From: an uncultured delta proteobacterium
GTDB lineage: Bacteria > Myxococcota > Myxococcia > Myxococcales > 40CM-4-68-19
Length of the DNA: 64,000 bases
Direction of reading: 5' to 3'
Assembly: GCA_903911145.1 (NCBI GenBank)
Contig: CAIWCD010000016.1
Span: forward strand, 1 to 64,000
In this document: in pieces, positions 17,996 to 60,331 of the stretch
Numbering within the stretch: position 1 is the stretch's first letter
Layout: each line of letters begins with the position of its first letter
Made by a program: the position numbers and the translations under genes
The notes under the pieces: model-generated
Databases searched by the model: none
What the model was told of the DNA's origin: nothing
The model's input: only the letters and a program-made list of their open reading frames with translations

Positions 17996-18457
17996 TTACG
18001 GCAGCTCGAGCGGAACGATGGAGAGTTGCGCGGGCGCCTGCTCCGGCGGGCCTTGCGCGCAGTGGTACATGTCGAGAAAGAGCGTCCGATCGCCATCGCC
18101 GCAGGAAACGATCACCGCCTCGACGATGTGAAAGTCTGGCTCGCCACGAGCCAGCGGCCGCCCCGGATCAAGCTGCTGCAGTTGTCGCGGATCGTCATCC
18201 GACGCAGGCTCACTGCGCGCCCCCGCCGCCGAGCGGGAAACGATGCGCACGGGTGAGCCATCCGGACAGCGCAGACGGCTGAGCCAGAGCTGCTCGCCCG
18301 GTGGCATGCAGACCTCGACGGCGTCCGATCGTTGGAGTGCAAACGATCTGTTCACGACGCCCGCAGGCACATGCGCGCACGACGGGAGCAGCGCAAGCGC
18401 AAGCGCGACGCCAGTGCGCGCGGAGGCGGCCGCGCTATCCGACAATATCTTCTCCAC
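17996..18457 (-). CDS. Putative lipoprotein of unknown function
   Basis: A 153-residue protein not recognised by family. After a short charged start there is a hydrophobic stretch ending in L-L-P-S-C-A, a plausible lipobox, so it is probably a small lipoprotein. Two or three further cysteines (V-C-M-P-P-G, L-R-C-P-D-G, V-S-C-G-D-G, Y-H-C) could form disulfides. It carries one copy of the TTKG-N4-CMAA dyad element, read as S-F-A-L-Q-R-S. Its 5' end overlaps the 3' end of the upstream reductase gene by 23 bp, so co-expression is likely. Confidence 0.55.
   Translation of the reverse strand: MEKILSDSAAASARTGVALALALLPSCAHVPAGVVNRSFALQRSDAVEVCMPPGEQLWLSRLRCPDGSPVRIVSRSAAGARSEPASDDDPRQLQQLDPGRPLARGEPDFHIVEAVIVSCGDGDRTLFLDMYHCAQGPPEQAPAQLSIVPLELP
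18327..18348. repeat. Dyad element, single unit (copy at 18.3 kb)
   Basis: GATCGTTGG-AGTG-CAAACGATC: 9-bp arms around a 4-base centre, 8 of 9 positions complementary. It matches the arms and centre of the arrays at 21.3, 26.1, 57.8 and 60.3 kb. Here it is inside the small lipoprotein gene, in a different reading frame from the copies in lpxK and the PPC-domain lipoprotein. Confidence 0.75.
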
Positions 18458-21329: not shown

Positions 21330-21366
21330 ATCGTTTGAGTGCCAATGATTTGAGTGCAAACTATCT
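21328..21366. repeat. Dyad array, two units, filling a convergent gene gap
   Basis: Two TTTG-AGTG-CMAA dyads exactly 15 bp apart (21334 and 21349), with outer arms AGATCG and CTATCT. The array occupies all 31 bp between the hydrolase stop (21327-21329) and the TlpA-like gene stop (21361-21363, minus strand); both TAG stops sit on its edges. Candidate roles are a bidirectional terminator or protein-binding site; T-runs are absent. Confidence 0.8.
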
Positions 21367-21933
21367 GGCGGCGAGAGCTTCGTCGAGCACGCGACGCAGC
21401 TCGCGCTCTTCGCTCGCATCAAGCACGCCGACGCGGCGCCAGATGATGCGCCTGTCCCGGCCCACCACCAGCATGGTCGGGAGGGACTCGACGTGGAACG
21501 CATCCTGCGCGCCGCCGTTGTCGAGCGCGACCGGGAACGAGAGCTGGTTCTGCAGCAGGAACTCCTGCACCTGCGGCTCGCGATTGGCGTCGTCGTTGTC
21601 CGTGTCGATGGAGAAGAGCTCGACACCGCGCGAAGAGTAGTCGCGCAACACGTGCTGTACGCGCGGCATGCTCGCGCGACAGGGCGCGCACCAGGTGGCC
21701 CAGAAGTCGACGATGGTGATCGTGTTGTCCTTCAGCTCCTGCTTCGTCTTGCCATCGAGCAGCGGCAGCATCACTTGCGGCGCGCGGTCGAGCGCCCCCT
21801 TGCGATGGTCCTTGTAGAGCGCAAGCCCGAGGATGATCGCAGCGGACGCGATGATGAGCGCCCAGAACGGGACGGGCGGCGAAGAGGATTCGGGCACGGC
21901 GCGCACGATGGGCAAGAGGCCGCGCGGCGTCAA
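21361..21933 (-). CDS. TlpA/ResA-like membrane-anchored thioredoxin
   Basis: A 190-residue protein with one N-terminal membrane segment (about 22-39, F-W-A-L-I-I-A-S-A-A-I-I-L-G-L-A-L-Y) and a periplasmic thioredoxin-fold domain. The redox motif is W-C-A-P-C in V-D-F-W-A-T-W-C-A-P-C, and the cis-proline is in L-P-T-M-L-V-V-G. The family works in disulfide reduction, for instance in cytochrome c maturation; no ccm or ccs genes are seen here, so its partner is unknown. It lies 36 bp downstream of a small membrane-anchored protein gene on the same strand, possibly an operon. Confidence 0.85.
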   Translation of the reverse strand: MTPRGLLPIVRAVPESSSPPVPFWALIIASAAIILGLALYKDHRKGALDRAPQVMLPLLDGKTKQELKDNTITIVDFWATWCAPCRASMPRVQHVLRDYSSRGVELFSIDTDNDDANREPQVQEFLLQNQLSFPVALDNGGAQDAFHVESLPTMLVVGRDRRIIWRRVGVLDASEERELRRVLDEALAAR

Positions 21934-23963: not shown

Positions 23964-23978
23964 TTGGTGTACGAATGA
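23964..23978. repeat. Possible degenerate dyad unit before the polyprenyl synthase start
   Basis: TTGG-TGTA-CGAATGA matches the unit at 26.06 kb in 13 of 15 positions. It fills the mvaA-polyprenyl synthase gap, and the ATG start of the latter lies within its right arm. With one arm mismatched it is a weak member of the family and could be chance. Confidence 0.35.
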
Positions 23979-25078: not shown

Positions 25079-25977
25079 TCGGTCTGCGCCTTCACGGGCG
25101 CGCGCGGCTGCGTCTTCCAGCGCCGATGCAGCCAGTACCACTGCTCCGGATGCGCACGTACGATCGCCTCGACTGCGCGCGTGAGTTCCTGCGTCAGCGC
25201 CTGGATCGCTGCGTGCCCACGCAGTTCGGGCGGCGCGACGAACGGACCTTGCACGAGGACGCGGTGGCTTCCATCCGGCTGCCGCACGGGAAAGGCTGCG
25301 ATGATCGGCGCGCCCGCGCGCAGCGCGTAGACGGCAGCAGCGGGCGTCGTGCAGGCCGGGTGCGAAAAGAAGTCGACGAAGATGCCGCGCTTCTCCCTCA
25401 TGTTCTGATCGACCGCGATCGCGAGCACGCCGTTGCGCCGCAGCAGCGCGAGCGCGTCGGCCGTCGCGCCGCGATCAGGAAGTTGCGCAAGTCCGCTCCC
25501 CGCGCGGGCCGCAGCGATCCTGCGATTCGCCCAGCCGTTCATCTTGCGGGTGATCGTCGCGAGTTGGACACCGCGTTTCGCGCAGGCCCGACCCAGCAAC
25601 TCCCAGTTGCCGAAGTGCGCGATCACGACCACCACGCCGTGCCCCTCGGCGGCGGCCTGCTCGTAACGCTCGAAGCCGTCGAACGAGACCCAGTCGGCGA
25701 GCTCGCCATCTGAGATTGTGCGCGACAGGAGAATCTCGCCGAGGCCCGTGCCGAGCGATGCGTAGCTCGACCGGGCGAGCGTGCGGCGCGCCGCTTCATC
25801 GAGGGAGGGAAAGGCGCGCGCGAGATTTTCCAGCACCACACGGCGACGAATTCTCAAGAGCCACGCAAGACCGCCGAGCGCGCGACCGAACGCGATCCAG
25901 AGGCGGCCGGAGAGTCGCTGGTTGGGCAACCGCACGGGGCCCGTGCCGCGCGGGCGCGGAGACGTCGCGACCGTCAC
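25054..25977 (-). CDS. LpxL/HtrB-type lipid A acyltransferase
   Basis: A 307-residue lysophospholipid/lipid A acyltransferase of the LpxL-LpxM family, which adds a secondary acyl chain to Kdo-lipid A at the inner membrane. The catalytic H-x4-E motif is present as H-F-G-N-W-E; the V-D-Q-N-M-R motif and C-terminal H-P-E-Q-W-Y-W-L-H-R-R-W also match. A hydrophobic, basic N-terminus anchors it in the membrane. The GTG start overlaps the lpxK stop (GTGA). It is last in a marC - outer-membrane protein - waaA - lpxK - lpxL run, which supports a lipid A role. LpxL cannot be told from LpxM here. Confidence 0.9.
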   Translation of the reverse strand: MTVATSPRPRGTGPVRLPNQRLSGRLWIAFGRALGGLAWLLRIRRRVVLENLARAFPSLDEAARRTLARSSYASLGTGLGEILLSRTISDGELADWVSFDGFERYEQAAAEGHGVVVVIAHFGNWELLGRACAKRGVQLATITRKMNGWANRRIAAARAGSGLAQLPDRGATADALALLRRNGVLAIAVDQNMREKRGIFVDFFSHPACTTPAAAVYALRAGAPIIAAFPVRQPDGSHRVLVQGPFVAPPELRGHAAIQALTQELTRAVEAIVRAHPEQWYWLHRRWKTQPRAPVKAQTDQLARRTE

Positions 25978-27074
25978 GCGCTCTTCTCCAACAAGGTGTC
26001 GAGTGCGGCCGTGAGCAGCTCTTCTCCAGAGAGAATTTCCAGCTCGATGGGGAGCGCCGAGATCGTTGGTGTACCAATCATCTCCGTTGCCGGGATCCGC
26101 GCGGCGTCTTTCTCTGTGGTCACGATGCGCGTCGCGCCCGCGCCCAGAGCGGCCTTGCGCACGTTCGCCAATTGCGTCGCCGTGAACGGGTGATGGTCGG
26201 CGAAGAAGCGCGAACCGCGAATCTCCGCGCCGAGAGCGCGCACGGTCTCGGCGAATCTCTCCGGGCGCGCGATGCCTGCGAGCAGATAGACGGGCACGCC
26301 GCGCAATGAAGCAGAACCGTCGAGCGGCGAGGGCATGCTGCTGTCAGCGGGGCCCTGCGCGATGGTGGCGCTCCGGACCGGGCCGCGAAGTCCGGCCTGC
26401 CGCGCGGCATCGAGGAGAGTTCGCATCGACTCGTTCTCCTCCACGTCACGCGCGTTGCTCAACCAGAGAAGTCCGCGGCTGCCGACGCGAGCGAAGGCCT
26501 CCGCGCCCTCTCGCAGCGGTCCTCGCGGCAAGCGCCGATCATTGCCCAGCAACGCCTTGGCGTCGATCACGATCACGTCGAGATCGCGGGCGAGGGCATG
26601 GTGCTGCAGGCCATCGTCGAGAACCAGCACGTCGGCACCGCGCCGCTGCGCCTCCTGCGCCAGCAGCGCGCGATCGGCGCCCACGAGCACGGTCAGCCAC
26701 GGGCAGCGACGCGCCACCAGGAGCGGTTCATCTCCGGCTGCACGCGCATCGAGCAGAGGCCCGCTCCCCTCGCAGACCACCGACAGAGGCGCGCCGTTGC
26801 GGCGGCCATATCCGCGCGAGAGAAACGCCGGCCGATGCCCGCGCGCGCGCAGTTGCTCGCAGAGCAGCATCGCTACCGGGCTCTTCCCCGCGCCGCCGAC
26901 CGCGAGATTTCCGACCGAGATGACCTTCGCGCGCGCCCGCTGCGGCGAGGCCAGCTTCGCGTGCATCGCTGCGCCGGCGCGGAAGAACAGAGACAACAAC
27001 GAGAGCGGCCAGAGCAGCGCCTCCGCCCACACCGGCTCATCGCGCCTCCACCAGATGCGCTCGAGCGCTCGCAT
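25974..27074 (-). CDS. lpxK: Tetraacyldisaccharide 4'-kinase
   Basis: Lipid A 4'-kinase, 366 residues, which phosphorylates the tetraacyl disaccharide precursor at the inner membrane. Conserved: membrane-proximal N-terminus (L-L-W-P-L-S-L-L-S-L-F-F-R), Walker A in V-G-N-L-A-V-G-G-A-G-K-S-P, S-R-G-Y-G-R, D-D-G-L-Q-H, and A-G-I-A-R-P with the C-terminal D-H-H-P-F and T-T-E-K-D-A-A-R-I. Near the C-terminus the family-unrelated I-G-T-P-T-I is encoded by a dyad element. A GTG at 27077 is an alternative start three bases upstream; the ATG at 27074 overlaps the waaA stop. Confidence 0.95.
   Translation of the reverse strand: MRALERIWWRRDEPVWAEALLWPLSLLSLFFRAGAAMHAKLASPQRARAKVISVGNLAVGGAGKSPVAMLLCEQLRARGHRPAFLSRGYGRRNGAPLSVVCEGSGPLLDARAAGDEPLLVARRCPWLTVLVGADRALLAQEAQRRGADVLVLDDGLQHHALARDLDVIVIDAKALLGNDRRLPRGPLREGAEAFARVGSRGLLWLSNARDVEENESMRTLLDAARQAGLRGPVRSATIAQGPADSSMPSPLDGSASLRGVPVYLLAGIARPERFAETVRALGAEIRGSRFFADHHPFTATQLANVRKAALGAGATRIVTTEKDAARIPATEMIGTPTISALPIELEILSGEELLTAALDTLLEKSA
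26059..26084. repeat. Dyad element, single unit, inside lpxK
   Basis: GAGATCGTTGG-TGTA and CCAATCATCTC: 11-bp arms with 9 complementary positions and a TGTA centre. On the coding (minus) strand it reads M-I-G-T-P-T-I-S, the same frame as the I-G-T-P repeats of the copy at 57.8 kb. It sits in a linker near the LpxK C-terminus and does not disturb the frame. Confidence 0.75.
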
Positions 27075-28363
27075 CACACCGCTCCCGGATTCGCTGGCGG
27101 CAACAGCTGCACGATCAGCTTCGCATCGCGCGCGCTCGCGCCCCGCACGGCCGCCGTTGCCTCGCGCGCCATCTGCCCGAGATTCGCGAGTTCATCCGGC
27201 CGCGCCAGCAACTCGCGCAGCAGCTTCTCGAGCGCACGCGGCGTTGCGACCTGAAGTCCGCCGCGTCCGAGGAGCACCTGCACGCTGTCGACGAAGTTCT
27301 CCATCCGCGGTCCGAACAGCACCGGCTTGGCGCAGGCTGCGGGCTCGAGAATGTTCTGTCCGCCTCTGCGGCCAAAGCTGCCGCCCACAAACACGATCGT
27401 CGCGAGCGCGTAGGCGCGCACCAGTTCGCCGATCGTGTCGAGGACGATCACCTGCTCGGCGCCACCCGGCTGCGAGCGCAGACGCGCCGAGAGCCCACGC
27501 TCGCGCGCCATCGCGAGGACACGCGGCGCACGCTCGATGTAGCGCGGCGCGAGCAGCAGCCTCAGCCCGGGAAACTCGGTGCGCAGTTGCGCGAAGACCG
27601 CGAGCAGCGGCCCTTCCTCTCCGTCATGCGTCGAGCCGCAGACCCAGAGCCGCTCACCTGCGCAGCCGAGCGCTTCGGCGAACTGCGGATCCGGCCCCGG
27701 CGGAACACTGACCGCGAGCGCGTCAAACTTCGTGTTCCCCGTGATCGCGATCGTGCTCTTGTCCGCGCCCAGCAAGAGCGCGCGCTCCGCCTCTTCTTCG
27801 GCGCGCATCAGCAGCAGCGTAAATTTCTGCAGCAGATTTCCCGTCAGGCGGAAGAGCAGTTGGTAGCGCCCGACGTTGCGCGGCCCGATGCGTCCATTGG
27901 TCAGCACCAGCTTCGCGCCACACGCTTGCGCCGCGTTGATCAACTGCGGCCAGAGTTCCGTGTACTCGAGCACCAGCACGTCGGGGCGCAAGGCGCGCAT
28001 CGTCCGCGCGCAGGCCTGCGGCAGATCCCACGGCACGAACGTGACGAGCTCGCAGAGCCCGGTACTCTTGAGCCGCTGCTCCGCCATCGCGGCGCCCGAG
28101 TCGGTCATCGCAGAAATCATGATGCGCGCGTCGGGCCTGAGCGCCTTGAGTTCGCGCACGATCGGCACCAGACCGAGGATGTCGCCGGCCGATGCGCCAT
28201 GCAGCCAGATGCGCGGACCCGCGCCAGGAGCGGGCGGGAGAGGATCTCCTCGATACCTGCCAAAGCGTGCGCGCTGGCCTCGCCTGGTGCGCGGATGGAA
28301 GATCAGGAACGGCGCGGCGAGGAAGAATGCGAACCACGCGATGGCGGCGGCCAGGAAAGGCAT
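27074..28363 (-). CDS. waaA: 3-deoxy-D-manno-octulosonic acid transferase
   Basis: Kdo transferase (WaaA/KdtA, family GT30), 429 residues, which adds Kdo from CMP-Kdo to lipid IVA. N-terminal membrane anchor (residues 4-22), the W-L-H-G-A-S-A-G-D motif near the start of the acceptor domain, E-Y-T-E-L-W-P, T-N-G-R-I, and in the donor domain G-S-T-H-D-G-E-E and F-V-G-G-S-F ... G-G-Q-N-I-L-E-P-A, all typical. Six bp downstream of the outer-membrane protein gene and overlapping lpxK. Number of Kdo units added cannot be inferred. Confidence 0.95.
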   Translation of the reverse strand: MPFLAAAIAWFAFFLAAPFLIFHPRTRRGQRARFGRYRGDPLPPAPGAGPRIWLHGASAGDILGLVPIVRELKALRPDARIMISAMTDSGAAMAEQRLKSTGLCELVTFVPWDLPQACARTMRALRPDVLVLEYTELWPQLINAAQACGAKLVLTNGRIGPRNVGRYQLLFRLTGNLLQKFTLLLMRAEEEAERALLLGADKSTIAITGNTKFDALAVSVPPGPDPQFAEALGCAGERLWVCGSTHDGEEGPLLAVFAQLRTEFPGLRLLLAPRYIERAPRVLAMARERGLSARLRSQPGGAEQVIVLDTIGELVRAYALATIVFVGGSFGRRGGQNILEPAACAKPVLFGPRMENFVDSVQVLLGRGGLQVATPRALEKLLRELLARPDELANLGQMAREATAAVRGASARDAKLIVQLLPPANPGAV

Positions 28364-56714: not shown

Positions 56715-58442
56715 CTACTCGGCTGAGAGCAGATAGGTCTGCGTCGCGCTGCCCTCGCGACGCGGGCTGGCGACCTCGATGGCGTAGTCGCCCGGCTTGA
56801 ACGGCACGGAGAGGATCATCTCCGGTCCTTCTGCGTGCACGGCGTCGGAGGTGCCGATCACTTCAGAGATCGTGCGCCCGTCCTTGCCTGGCTTGAGCTG
56901 GCGCAGCGTGAGCATCGTGTCGACGCCGCGCACCGCGGAGAGCCGGAAGCTCAAGCTGCGGGGCGCGTCGAGATGGAAGCGGAAGAGATCGACATCGCGG
57001 CGCGGCCAGAGGGCTCCGGTGATTCGCGCGGGAAGCGAGATGGGCTGCGCGCGATCGAGGTCATCGTTGGGCTCGCGCTCGATCGTCCCATCGTCGGCGG
57101 CGAGCGAGACGTTGACCACATACGACGCGCTGCGATCCTCGCAGTCGCGAACCTTCGCGCCTCCGACATCGTGCTGCGCGCACCCGACGAGAACGAGCGC
57201 GTCGCCATCGATGCCCACCGAGGGAAGCAGCTCGCCCTCCCCCGCGCCGCCTTCGTTCGCGCGCGCGAGCAGCTGCGGCTTCTCTCCCGGATTGGCAGAC
57301 GGCGCGTAGACGGCCAGCTCGAGATCGGCATGCGCCAACCCGCTGACCTCGGCGCGCAGCACGGACTTTCCTTCATTGCGCACGCGATACCAATCGGCAT
57401 CTCCGCTCGGCGAGAGGAAACCGGTGCGCGTCGAGGCGAGCCAGTTCGCGTGCTGCGCATCATCGTTCGGCTCCGCCTCGAGATCGCGCGCGCCCGCTTC
57501 CAGTGCGGTCGAGAGCGTATATGCAACCTCCGCGTTCGCGCCTCGCCGCGCCTTCTTCTCATTCGTCAGCGGCGCTGAACGGACGACCAGATAGAAGCCG
57601 GGAGGCTCGCTTGGCGGCGCAACGATGACCGCTGCAGCAGGCTCCACGACGCTCGGAGCAACATGGGCCGTGGAGTCGGAAGGAGCAGGAGGAGGCGGCG
57701 TCGTCGCGGCATCCGGCGGCTCCACAGCAGGTTCGGCAATCGTGTCCGGCGGCGCGGTCGCCGCTCCCGCGTCGCTCGCCGACGCGCCTGCATCCAGATC
57801 GACGGCCGCGGGAGAATTGCTTGGTGTACCAATATTTGGTGTGCCAATTGTTTGAGTGCCAACCATCTCGACGGCCGCGTCGGCGCCCGTTTCCGACGCG
57901 GCTTCGGCGTCGGCCCCGGCGTCTGAACTGTCCGAGCCGATCGCGCTCCCGCCCGCGTCTGGCGCGGCCGCGCGCAATTGAGGAGGAAGCGGCGCAGCGA
58001 GCTCTCCTGCGAGTGAGATGTCACGCAGCGAGATCCCCTCGCCCTCGCCCGGTGCGCGGAACGTCGCCAGGAGCGTGCCATCCGCGAGCGCGCGCAGCTC
58101 GAGTTGGGGCCGCACGCCCGGGACGCCGGAGAGATCGATGCGAAGGAACTGGCCCGGCTGCGCGACCGCGCTCAGCTTGAACCAGTCTTCATCTTCGGAA
58201 GTCGCCAGAGTCCCCTTGATGCTCCGTCCAGCAACGAGAGGGGTTGCGTCGGCCGCGCGATTGTTCGGCTCGATTTCGAGACCGATCTCCGCAGCCGCAA
58301 CCGGCGCCGCTTTGCTTGCCGACGACGCACCAGCAGTCGCCGAAGCCGCTCCTGGTGCACCCTCGCGCGATCTCTTGCACGACGCAGCGACGAGACAGCT
58401 CACGCCGATCACGAGCGGCGCGGCCCACCGTGCGGTGCGCAT
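56715..58442 (-). CDS. Lipoprotein with three PPC-like (pre-peptidase C-terminal) domains
   Basis: A 575-residue probable lipoprotein (leader ending V-A-A-S-C-K). Three beta-sandwich domains of the bacterial pre-peptidase C-terminal type, each opened by an E-P-N-N/D motif (about residues 58, 325, 448) and carrying D-x-D-W/L-F/Y (E-D-W-F-K-L, A-D-W-Y-R-V, V-D-L-F-R-F). Between the first and second is a long Asp/Ala/Pro-rich linker (~150-290) that contains the V-G-T-Q-T-I-G-T-P-N-I-G-T-P peptide, encoded by a three-unit dyad array. No catalytic domain is attached. Probably a structural or binding role in the envelope. Confidence 0.8.
   Translation of the reverse strand: MRTARWAAPLVIGVSCLVAASCKRSREGAPGAASATAGASSASKAAPVAAAEIGLEIEPNNRAADATPLVAGRSIKGTLATSEDEDWFKLSAVAQPGQFLRIDLSGVPGVRPQLELRALADGTLLATFRAPGEGEGISLRDISLAGELAAPLPPQLRAAAPDAGGSAIGSDSSDAGADAEAASETGADAAVEMVGTQTIGTPNIGTPSNSPAAVDLDAGASASDAGAATAPPDTIAEPAVEPPDAATTPPPPAPSDSTAHVAPSVVEPAAAVIVAPPSEPPGFYLVVRSAPLTNEKKARRGANAEVAYTLSTALEAGARDLEAEPNDDAQHANWLASTRTGFLSPSGDADWYRVRNEGKSVLRAEVSGLAHADLELAVYAPSANPGEKPQLLARANEGGAGEGELLPSVGIDGDALVLVGCAQHDVGGAKVRDCEDRSASYVVNVSLAADDGTIEREPNDDLDRAQPISLPARITGALWPRRDVDLFRFHLDAPRSLSFRLSAVRGVDTMLTLRQLKPGKDGRTISEVIGTSDAVHAEGPEMILSVPFKPGDYAIEVASPRREGSATQTYLLSAE
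57812..57869. repeat. Dyad array, three units, flanked by 12-bp direct repeats
   Basis: Three TTKG-N4-CCAA dyads exactly 15 bp apart (57821, 57836, 57851; centres TGTA, TGTG, AGTG) with outer GAGAA and CATCTC arms. TCGACGGCCGCG occurs on both sides (57799-57810 and 57868-57879). The flanks could be a target-site duplication; they also encode A-A-V-D/E, so a repeat in the protein linker is the alternative. In frame with the lipoprotein gene (minus). Confidence 0.85.
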
Positions 58443-60290: not shown

Positions 60291-60331
60291 GAATTGGTTT
60301 GCATAGCAATCATTGGAACACCAACGATCTC
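60291..60331. repeat. Dyad array, two units, in the prmC-murA gap
   Basis: TTTG-CATA-GCAA (60298) and TTGG-AACA-CCAA (60313), exactly 15 bp apart, followed by CGATCTC. It occupies most of the 73-bp spacer between the prmC stop (60342) and the murA start (60268), ending about 22 bp before the murA ATG, so it lies where it could affect murA transcription or translation. Confidence 0.8.

Follow-up and report, generated by a model that had tools for sequence, protein, structure and literature searches.

Iterated TTKG-N4-CMAA dyads dispersed through one bacterial genome as a candidate chromosome-wide set of protein recognition sites

The window analysed here (the whole stretch of DNA, 64,000 nucleotides in length) carries short arrays of the dyad TTKG-N4-CMAA both in gaps between genes and inside genes, and the question raised by these arrays is whether they are insertions of a mobile palindrome, iterated operators, or sites of some other kind. 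All of the copies listed in the initial annotation were recovered, and they are given here with the genes that carry or adjoin them.

18328..18347, no strand assigned: one dyad unit, core 18332-18343 TTGGAGTGCAAA, in the spacer between two convergent called genes
21330..21364, no strand assigned: two dyad units 15 bp apart, cores at 21334 and 21349, filling a convergent-gene gap and abutting or overlapping both gene ends
21361..21906, minus strand: AhpC/TSA-family gene, its 3' end inside the two-unit array
23966..23977, no strand assigned: degenerate dyad TTGGTGTACGAA, outside the matrix units, a doubtful member
25974..27077, minus strand: lpxK (PF02606, E 5e-78), carrying one unit
26062..26081, no strand assigned: one dyad unit, core 26066-26077 TTGGTGTACCAA, inside lpxK, minus-strand reading MIGTPTI
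56715..58442, minus strand: host gene of the three-unit array, largely low-complexity, with a weak PPC domain at the C-terminus
57817..57866, no strand assigned: three dyad units 15 bp apart, cores at 57821, 57836 and 57851, in an Ala/Asp-rich linker within the gene, read as MVGTQTIGTPNIGTPSN
60294..60328, no strand assigned: two dyad units 15 bp apart, cores at 60298 and 60313, in an intergenic gap flanked by an EPSP-synthase-family gene and a prmC-like gene

Eight exact matches to TTKGN4CMAA lie in the window, whereas 100 dinucleotide shuffles give an expectation of 0.89 and never more than 3, and the weight matrix described below finds nine units, the ninth being that at 60298 (TTTGCATAGCAA). 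The exact 15-bp steps reported for the multi-unit arrays hold at the core positions given above. The degenerate copy reported at 23964-23978 is present, but it is absent from the matrix units and may be a chance occurrence. The AhpC/TSA domain is complete, so the gene that ends inside the two-unit array has not been cut short by it. LpxK aligns with no gap to the homologue in genome G002 (same family), with a 1-aa gap to that of G001 (same genus) and with a 7-aa gap to that of G004 (same family), a mixed picture as regards insertion.

Abundance, restriction to one species and anatomy of the unit

The genome comprises 5.30 Mb in 53 contigs, with a GC content of about 66% in the sampled part. 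Its gene content, and the large genomes found in the order, point to a probable place in Myxococcota, order Polyangiales. TTKG-N4-CMAA occurs 364 times in it, as opposed to 47 times for the reversed pattern used as a control (an approximately 8-fold excess), and dimers at 15 bp (3-base spacer) number 48 versus 0 for the reversed control. The frequency is thus above that of the control and copies are found elsewhere in the genome, so the original observation stands: the dispersed iterated dyads are real, and they are more extensive than first described. Extrapolation gives roughly 300 units at roughly 200 places per genome, a density of about 1 place per 24 kb, and some identical 27-mers recur among the copies.

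No dimer was found in 39 relatives, one of them a same-genus genome (88% complete), and the spacer-restricted dimer was absent among 144 other genomes of the order. A search of 84,980 species genomes with the two-dyad pattern retrieved 35 contigs, all with single occurrences except for one tandem array, while the viral contigs searched for the motif gave no match. Contig C3 (163 kb) of the present genome carries very few units and has accessory-looking genes, being rich in FG-GAP, kinase and TPR proteins; this paucity could be a domain effect or reflect recent acquisition. A dif-like site was looked for in the genome and not found, and the GC skew was too weak for placing the terminus. We also considered an analogous motif in G004, AGCT-N8-AGCT, retrieved as exact dyads, and discarded it as an in-frame codon artefact; the exact-dyad search used there is too insensitive to recover even the known motif in its own genome.

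A 20-bp weight matrix (26.6 bits) derived from about 1.5 Mb of genome stretches gives the consensus of the full unit as ATSR-TTKG-HRYD-CMAA-YSAT, in which the degenerate positions are partly imposed by the seed pattern; a wider seed put R and Y at about 95% in the central pair of positions. Matches of at least 12 bits number 209 in these stretches, with 0 expected from order-3 Markov sequence, and the family member G004 has 1 such match in 0.4 Mb. Re-estimating the matrix yielded 222 units at 140 places in the same sample, of which 80 are single, 38 double and 22 triple. The step between neighbouring units is 15 bp in 66 cases and 21 bp in 13, with 3 exceptions, so the 15-bp step seen in the window arrays is not the sole step genome-wide. 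At 15 bp the neighbouring units share a TSA arm, and at 21 bp the arms are separate and about three A/T bases lie between the units. The spacers TGA, TCA and CTA all occur. The tendency towards outer arms GAGAT/ATCTC proved real in the form AGATSG/CSATCT (A 85% and T 92% at arm positions 1-2), and beyond these arms the aligned units show no conservation at any flanking position.

The copies vary class-wise (K, R, Y, M), which is not how the decay of a single master copy would look. The two halves of a dyad also differ in a systematic way: G-ending halves (TTTGAG, TTGGTG) are mostly paired with A-ending ones (TTGGCA, TTGGTA, TTTGCA). The commonest unit, TTTGAGTGCCAA, has mismatched arms (TTTG/CCAA), and perfect palindromic cores are avoided (2 seen among the 222 units versus 24.6 expected), which is odd for a homodimer site and counts against the explanation that we favour below. 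Neighbouring units hardly ever have their G-halves facing each other (1 in 37 oriented pairs).

Position relative to genes and the cost to coding sequence

The 140 places were assigned to genes and gaps with a simple gene caller on the roughly 1.5 Mb of stretches, which were partly chosen around dimers; this sampling biases densities, but the comparison among gap types should be less affected. Places inside genes number 85 against 125 expected, those in tandem gaps 30 against 7.6, those in convergent gaps 19 against 1.7 (11-fold enriched), and those in divergent gaps 3 against 3.9, with no enrichment. The stop codon of a called gene lies inside 22 places, with 3.0 expected. Taken together, these counts indicate that the units gather where sequence is free and not at promoters. 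No evident regulators were seen among the genes downstream of promoter-proximal units, which are ordinary housekeeping-like genes. Units inside genes run against the coding strand in 71 cases and with it in 21, a bias plausibly due to codon choice and stop avoidance (TGA in TTTGAG) and not to replication polarity.

The initial annotation had likened the element to the palindromic elements of Rickettsia that insert in genes, and had proposed comparing orthologous loci. We aligned the element-bearing proteins with their homologues in G001, G002 and G004; FabH, S41 protease, QueG, DeoB, GlnD, HrpB, MetG and FolC are names read off the sequences in the light of family knowledge. FabH, with a two-unit array read as LSANDLSAND, aligns without a gap in three relatives, and the S41 protease carries its unit inside the GTQTFGKGSVQ motif, again without a gap. 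QueG, DeoB, a response regulator, an alpha/beta hydrolase, an aminopeptidase-like protein and the protein encoded at L007:14553 likewise show no gap at the motif against at least one relative, and usually against all; for GlnD this holds in two of three relatives, and for HrpB in the same-genus homologue. Next to the motif, MetG is 4 residues longer than two homologues. For arrays in linkers and loops the outcome varies: the region at L011:3778 is shorter than in G001, those at L015:8132 and L050:8220 are about equal to some relatives, and at L047:8179 (about 20 aa), L016:8420 (about 26 aa), L021:14292, L054:8129 and FolC (L176:10079) the loop or region holding the array is longer than in relatives. 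The G001 homologue at L246:966-1095 has a GC-rich minisatellite of 24- to 30-bp repeats in the linker where the present genome has a two-unit array; its tandem peptide repeat was considered as a related element and set aside as an ordinary GC-rich minisatellite.

The comparison thus gave gap-free alignments for most copies in conserved proteins, but some multi-unit arrays lie in longer loops. Insertion of the Rickettsia type does not hold as a general explanation, because most of the single units examined, and the two-unit array of FabH, replace coding sequence with the length unchanged. Judging from these alignments, most of the in-gene copies that can be compared appear not to be insertions, and insertion or expansion is possible for some of the multi-unit arrays in longer loops.

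The replacement is visible in the codons. The geometric mean relative adaptiveness is 0.247 in units versus 0.625 in flanks, and the conserved G-T-Q of the S41 protease is written GGT ACT CAA here as opposed to GGC/GGG ACG CAG in relatives, with GTQTF kept. In-gene copies use all three reading frames. The use of three frames and of rare codons bears out the earlier suggestion that the constraint acts on DNA and not on the peptide. Gap-free proteins and rare-codon spelling are explained by in-place evolution under such a constraint, and are not explained by a transposing element, at any rate in the copies concerned.

A candidate binder and the rival explanations

In 25 of 35 loci from other genomes, a MarR-family domain lies 29-171 bp from the two-dyad match (a raw count, without a random-position control), and all 25 matches are upstream of the MarR gene, as expected for autoregulated operators. 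These MarR/OhrR-type operators (L077-L111, e.g. L083:4351, L086:5536 and L106:4322) come from Chloroflexota, Actinomycetota and others and comprise two to four dyads at the 15-bp step; several of them have three or four, with spacers such as TGA, TCA and CTA, which occur in the present genome as well. By likeness of pattern, then, the dyad design appears to be that of MarR-type operators. The earlier suggestion of an iterated operator is a good structural description, since the same design stands upstream of MarR genes elsewhere, but an ordinary promoter operator is not supported by the location of the units. Three two-dyad matches, in the ammonia-oxidising archaea Nitrosopumilus and relatives (L082:3241, L108:1576 and L111:6069), have no MarR domain within 400 bp, and those of L082 and L111 both have a GATCTC context downstream. 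The present genome has five MarR-type matches, and no unit was found in the loci of about 3.3 kb around all five. At L114 and L115 the recognition-helix region resembles that of some operator-bearing proteins, and L112 gave weak matches only, among those MarR loci of relatives that were sampled, a part of the whole.

We consider it somewhat probable that the dyads serve, in this one species and throughout its genome, as recognition sites for a MarR-type winged-helix protein that binds side by side, and that they make up a chromosome-wide marker or lattice of mostly in-place origin. The dyads would be recognised by a dimeric protein with sequence-specific DNA binding, most probably a winged-helix protein of the MarR type, with one dimer covering one 20-bp dyad and two or three dimers binding side by side, either at 15 bp, with shared arms and about 1.4 turns from dyad to dyad, or at 21 bp (2 turns). 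Base substitutions would have produced the units mostly in place, at points where the neighbouring sequence could accommodate them, favouring convergent gene ends and protein linkers, and in enzymes through synonymous or mild changes. The set may then work as a chromosome-wide marker or architectural lattice and not as promoter operators.

Several other explanations deserve to be weighed against this. A mobile miniature palindromic element (RPE-, MITE- or REP-like), inserting in gaps and genes and then decaying, would account for a dispersed and species-restricted distribution enriched in 3' gene ends and linkers, for the arrays in loops longer than those of relatives and for the recurring 27-mers. 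We nevertheless find it unlikely, given that most element-bearing conserved proteins (including FabH) align gap-free, that the flanks beyond the arms are unconserved, and that the copies differ class-wise and not as decayed master copies. A DUS/USS-like signal for DNA uptake or self-recognition, one that spread in place through transformation and biased uptake, agrees with in-place evolution, with the housekeeping genes concerned, with the restriction to one species and with the few or no units on C3. Known uptake sequences are short, polar and far denser than the one place per 24 kb seen here, however, and tandem 15-bp iteration is foreign to them, which makes this explanation rather improbable.

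A very large ordinary regulon, in which the units are promoter operators of a MarR-type transcription factor, draws on the finding that MarR genes of other phyla have this dyad design upstream. It is very unlikely, as more than half of the places are in genes, divergent regions are not enriched while convergent ones are, and the genes with units upstream are housekeeping-like. The spread through genes and housekeeping functions, the location counts and the lack of evident regulators downstream fit chromosome-wide sites like those of SlmA better than a regulon. Finally, a hairpin or other RNA-level element such as a terminator could be proposed from the enrichment at convergent gene ends and from some symmetric dimers that fold well (z -6.1 and -8.4). 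For the window arrays, folding is not clearly better than that of shuffles (z -1.9, -0.2 and +0.15), and direct unit order is as common as inverted, on which grounds we rejected a hairpin or terminator as a general property. Together with the mismatched arms of the commonest unit, this folding also indicates that the unlike halves are not a hairpin rule, and we regard an explanation of this kind as highly improbable.

Returning to the preferred reading of a recognition-site set, a more specific and more tentative version of it is that in one lineage a MarR-type protein turned into an architectural or self-marking protein, which lines up its dimers in short rows at hundreds of sites, and that coding sequences were rewritten with rare codons and amino-acid changes to suit. 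Known chromosome-wide site families tend to be common to related genera, which obscures how they began. The present family, with its hundreds of long iterated sites, occurs in one species and is absent from its genus mate and from the order's other genomes; any one site can be compared with relatives at the level of codons, so that the origin of a global DNA-binding code and its cost to proteins become directly testable.

Comparison with known systems

HIP1 of cyanobacteria is, like the dyads, a palindrome over-represented in the genome (PMC4390886), but it is 8 bp long, is possibly methyltransferase-linked, has far more copies and does not recur at a fixed step. The DNA uptake sequences of Neisseriaceae are likewise dispersed and come in dialects that differ between species (PMC3630211), a likeness to the species-specific form seen here, although those sequences are not iterated dyads. 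The Rickettsia palindromic elements are likewise palindromic and found in gaps and genes; they are insertions of about 150 bp with a conserved peptide (PMC10969869), whereas the arrays here are 26-62 bp, are read in three frames and are mostly length-neutral. Of what defines RPEs and MITEs, insertion relative to orthologues is not seen in the gap-free proteins, the arrays in variable loops being ambiguous on this point, and a conserved single-frame peptide is not seen, given the three frames; the stable stem-loop and extragenic position of REP/BIME elements are not found either, with most places in genes and folding not general.

The tandem MarR/OhrR operators of Chloroflexota and Actinomycetota match in dyad type, having the same 12-bp dyads, TSA spacer and 15-bp step with up to 3-4 dyads. 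They are isolated copies at a marR promoter, whereas here there are hundreds, mostly off promoters and none near the MarR genes checked, so the promoter- or regulator-adjacent location is lacking. SlmA is a protein of a transcription-factor (TetR) family whose sites lie mainly in coding regions (PMC3116907). Its sites and the matS sites of enterobacteria are palindromes for a dedicated protein dispersed over the chromosome, and the dyads are likewise dispersed and tolerated in coding regions. The SlmA sites of E. coli number about 50 and are avoided in Ter, as is the case in related genera too; the present set differs in its hundreds of units, its 15- and 21-bp iteration, its restriction to one species, its consensus and its still putative binder. 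The site set is nevertheless best read as closer to SlmA or matS sites than to operators or transposons.
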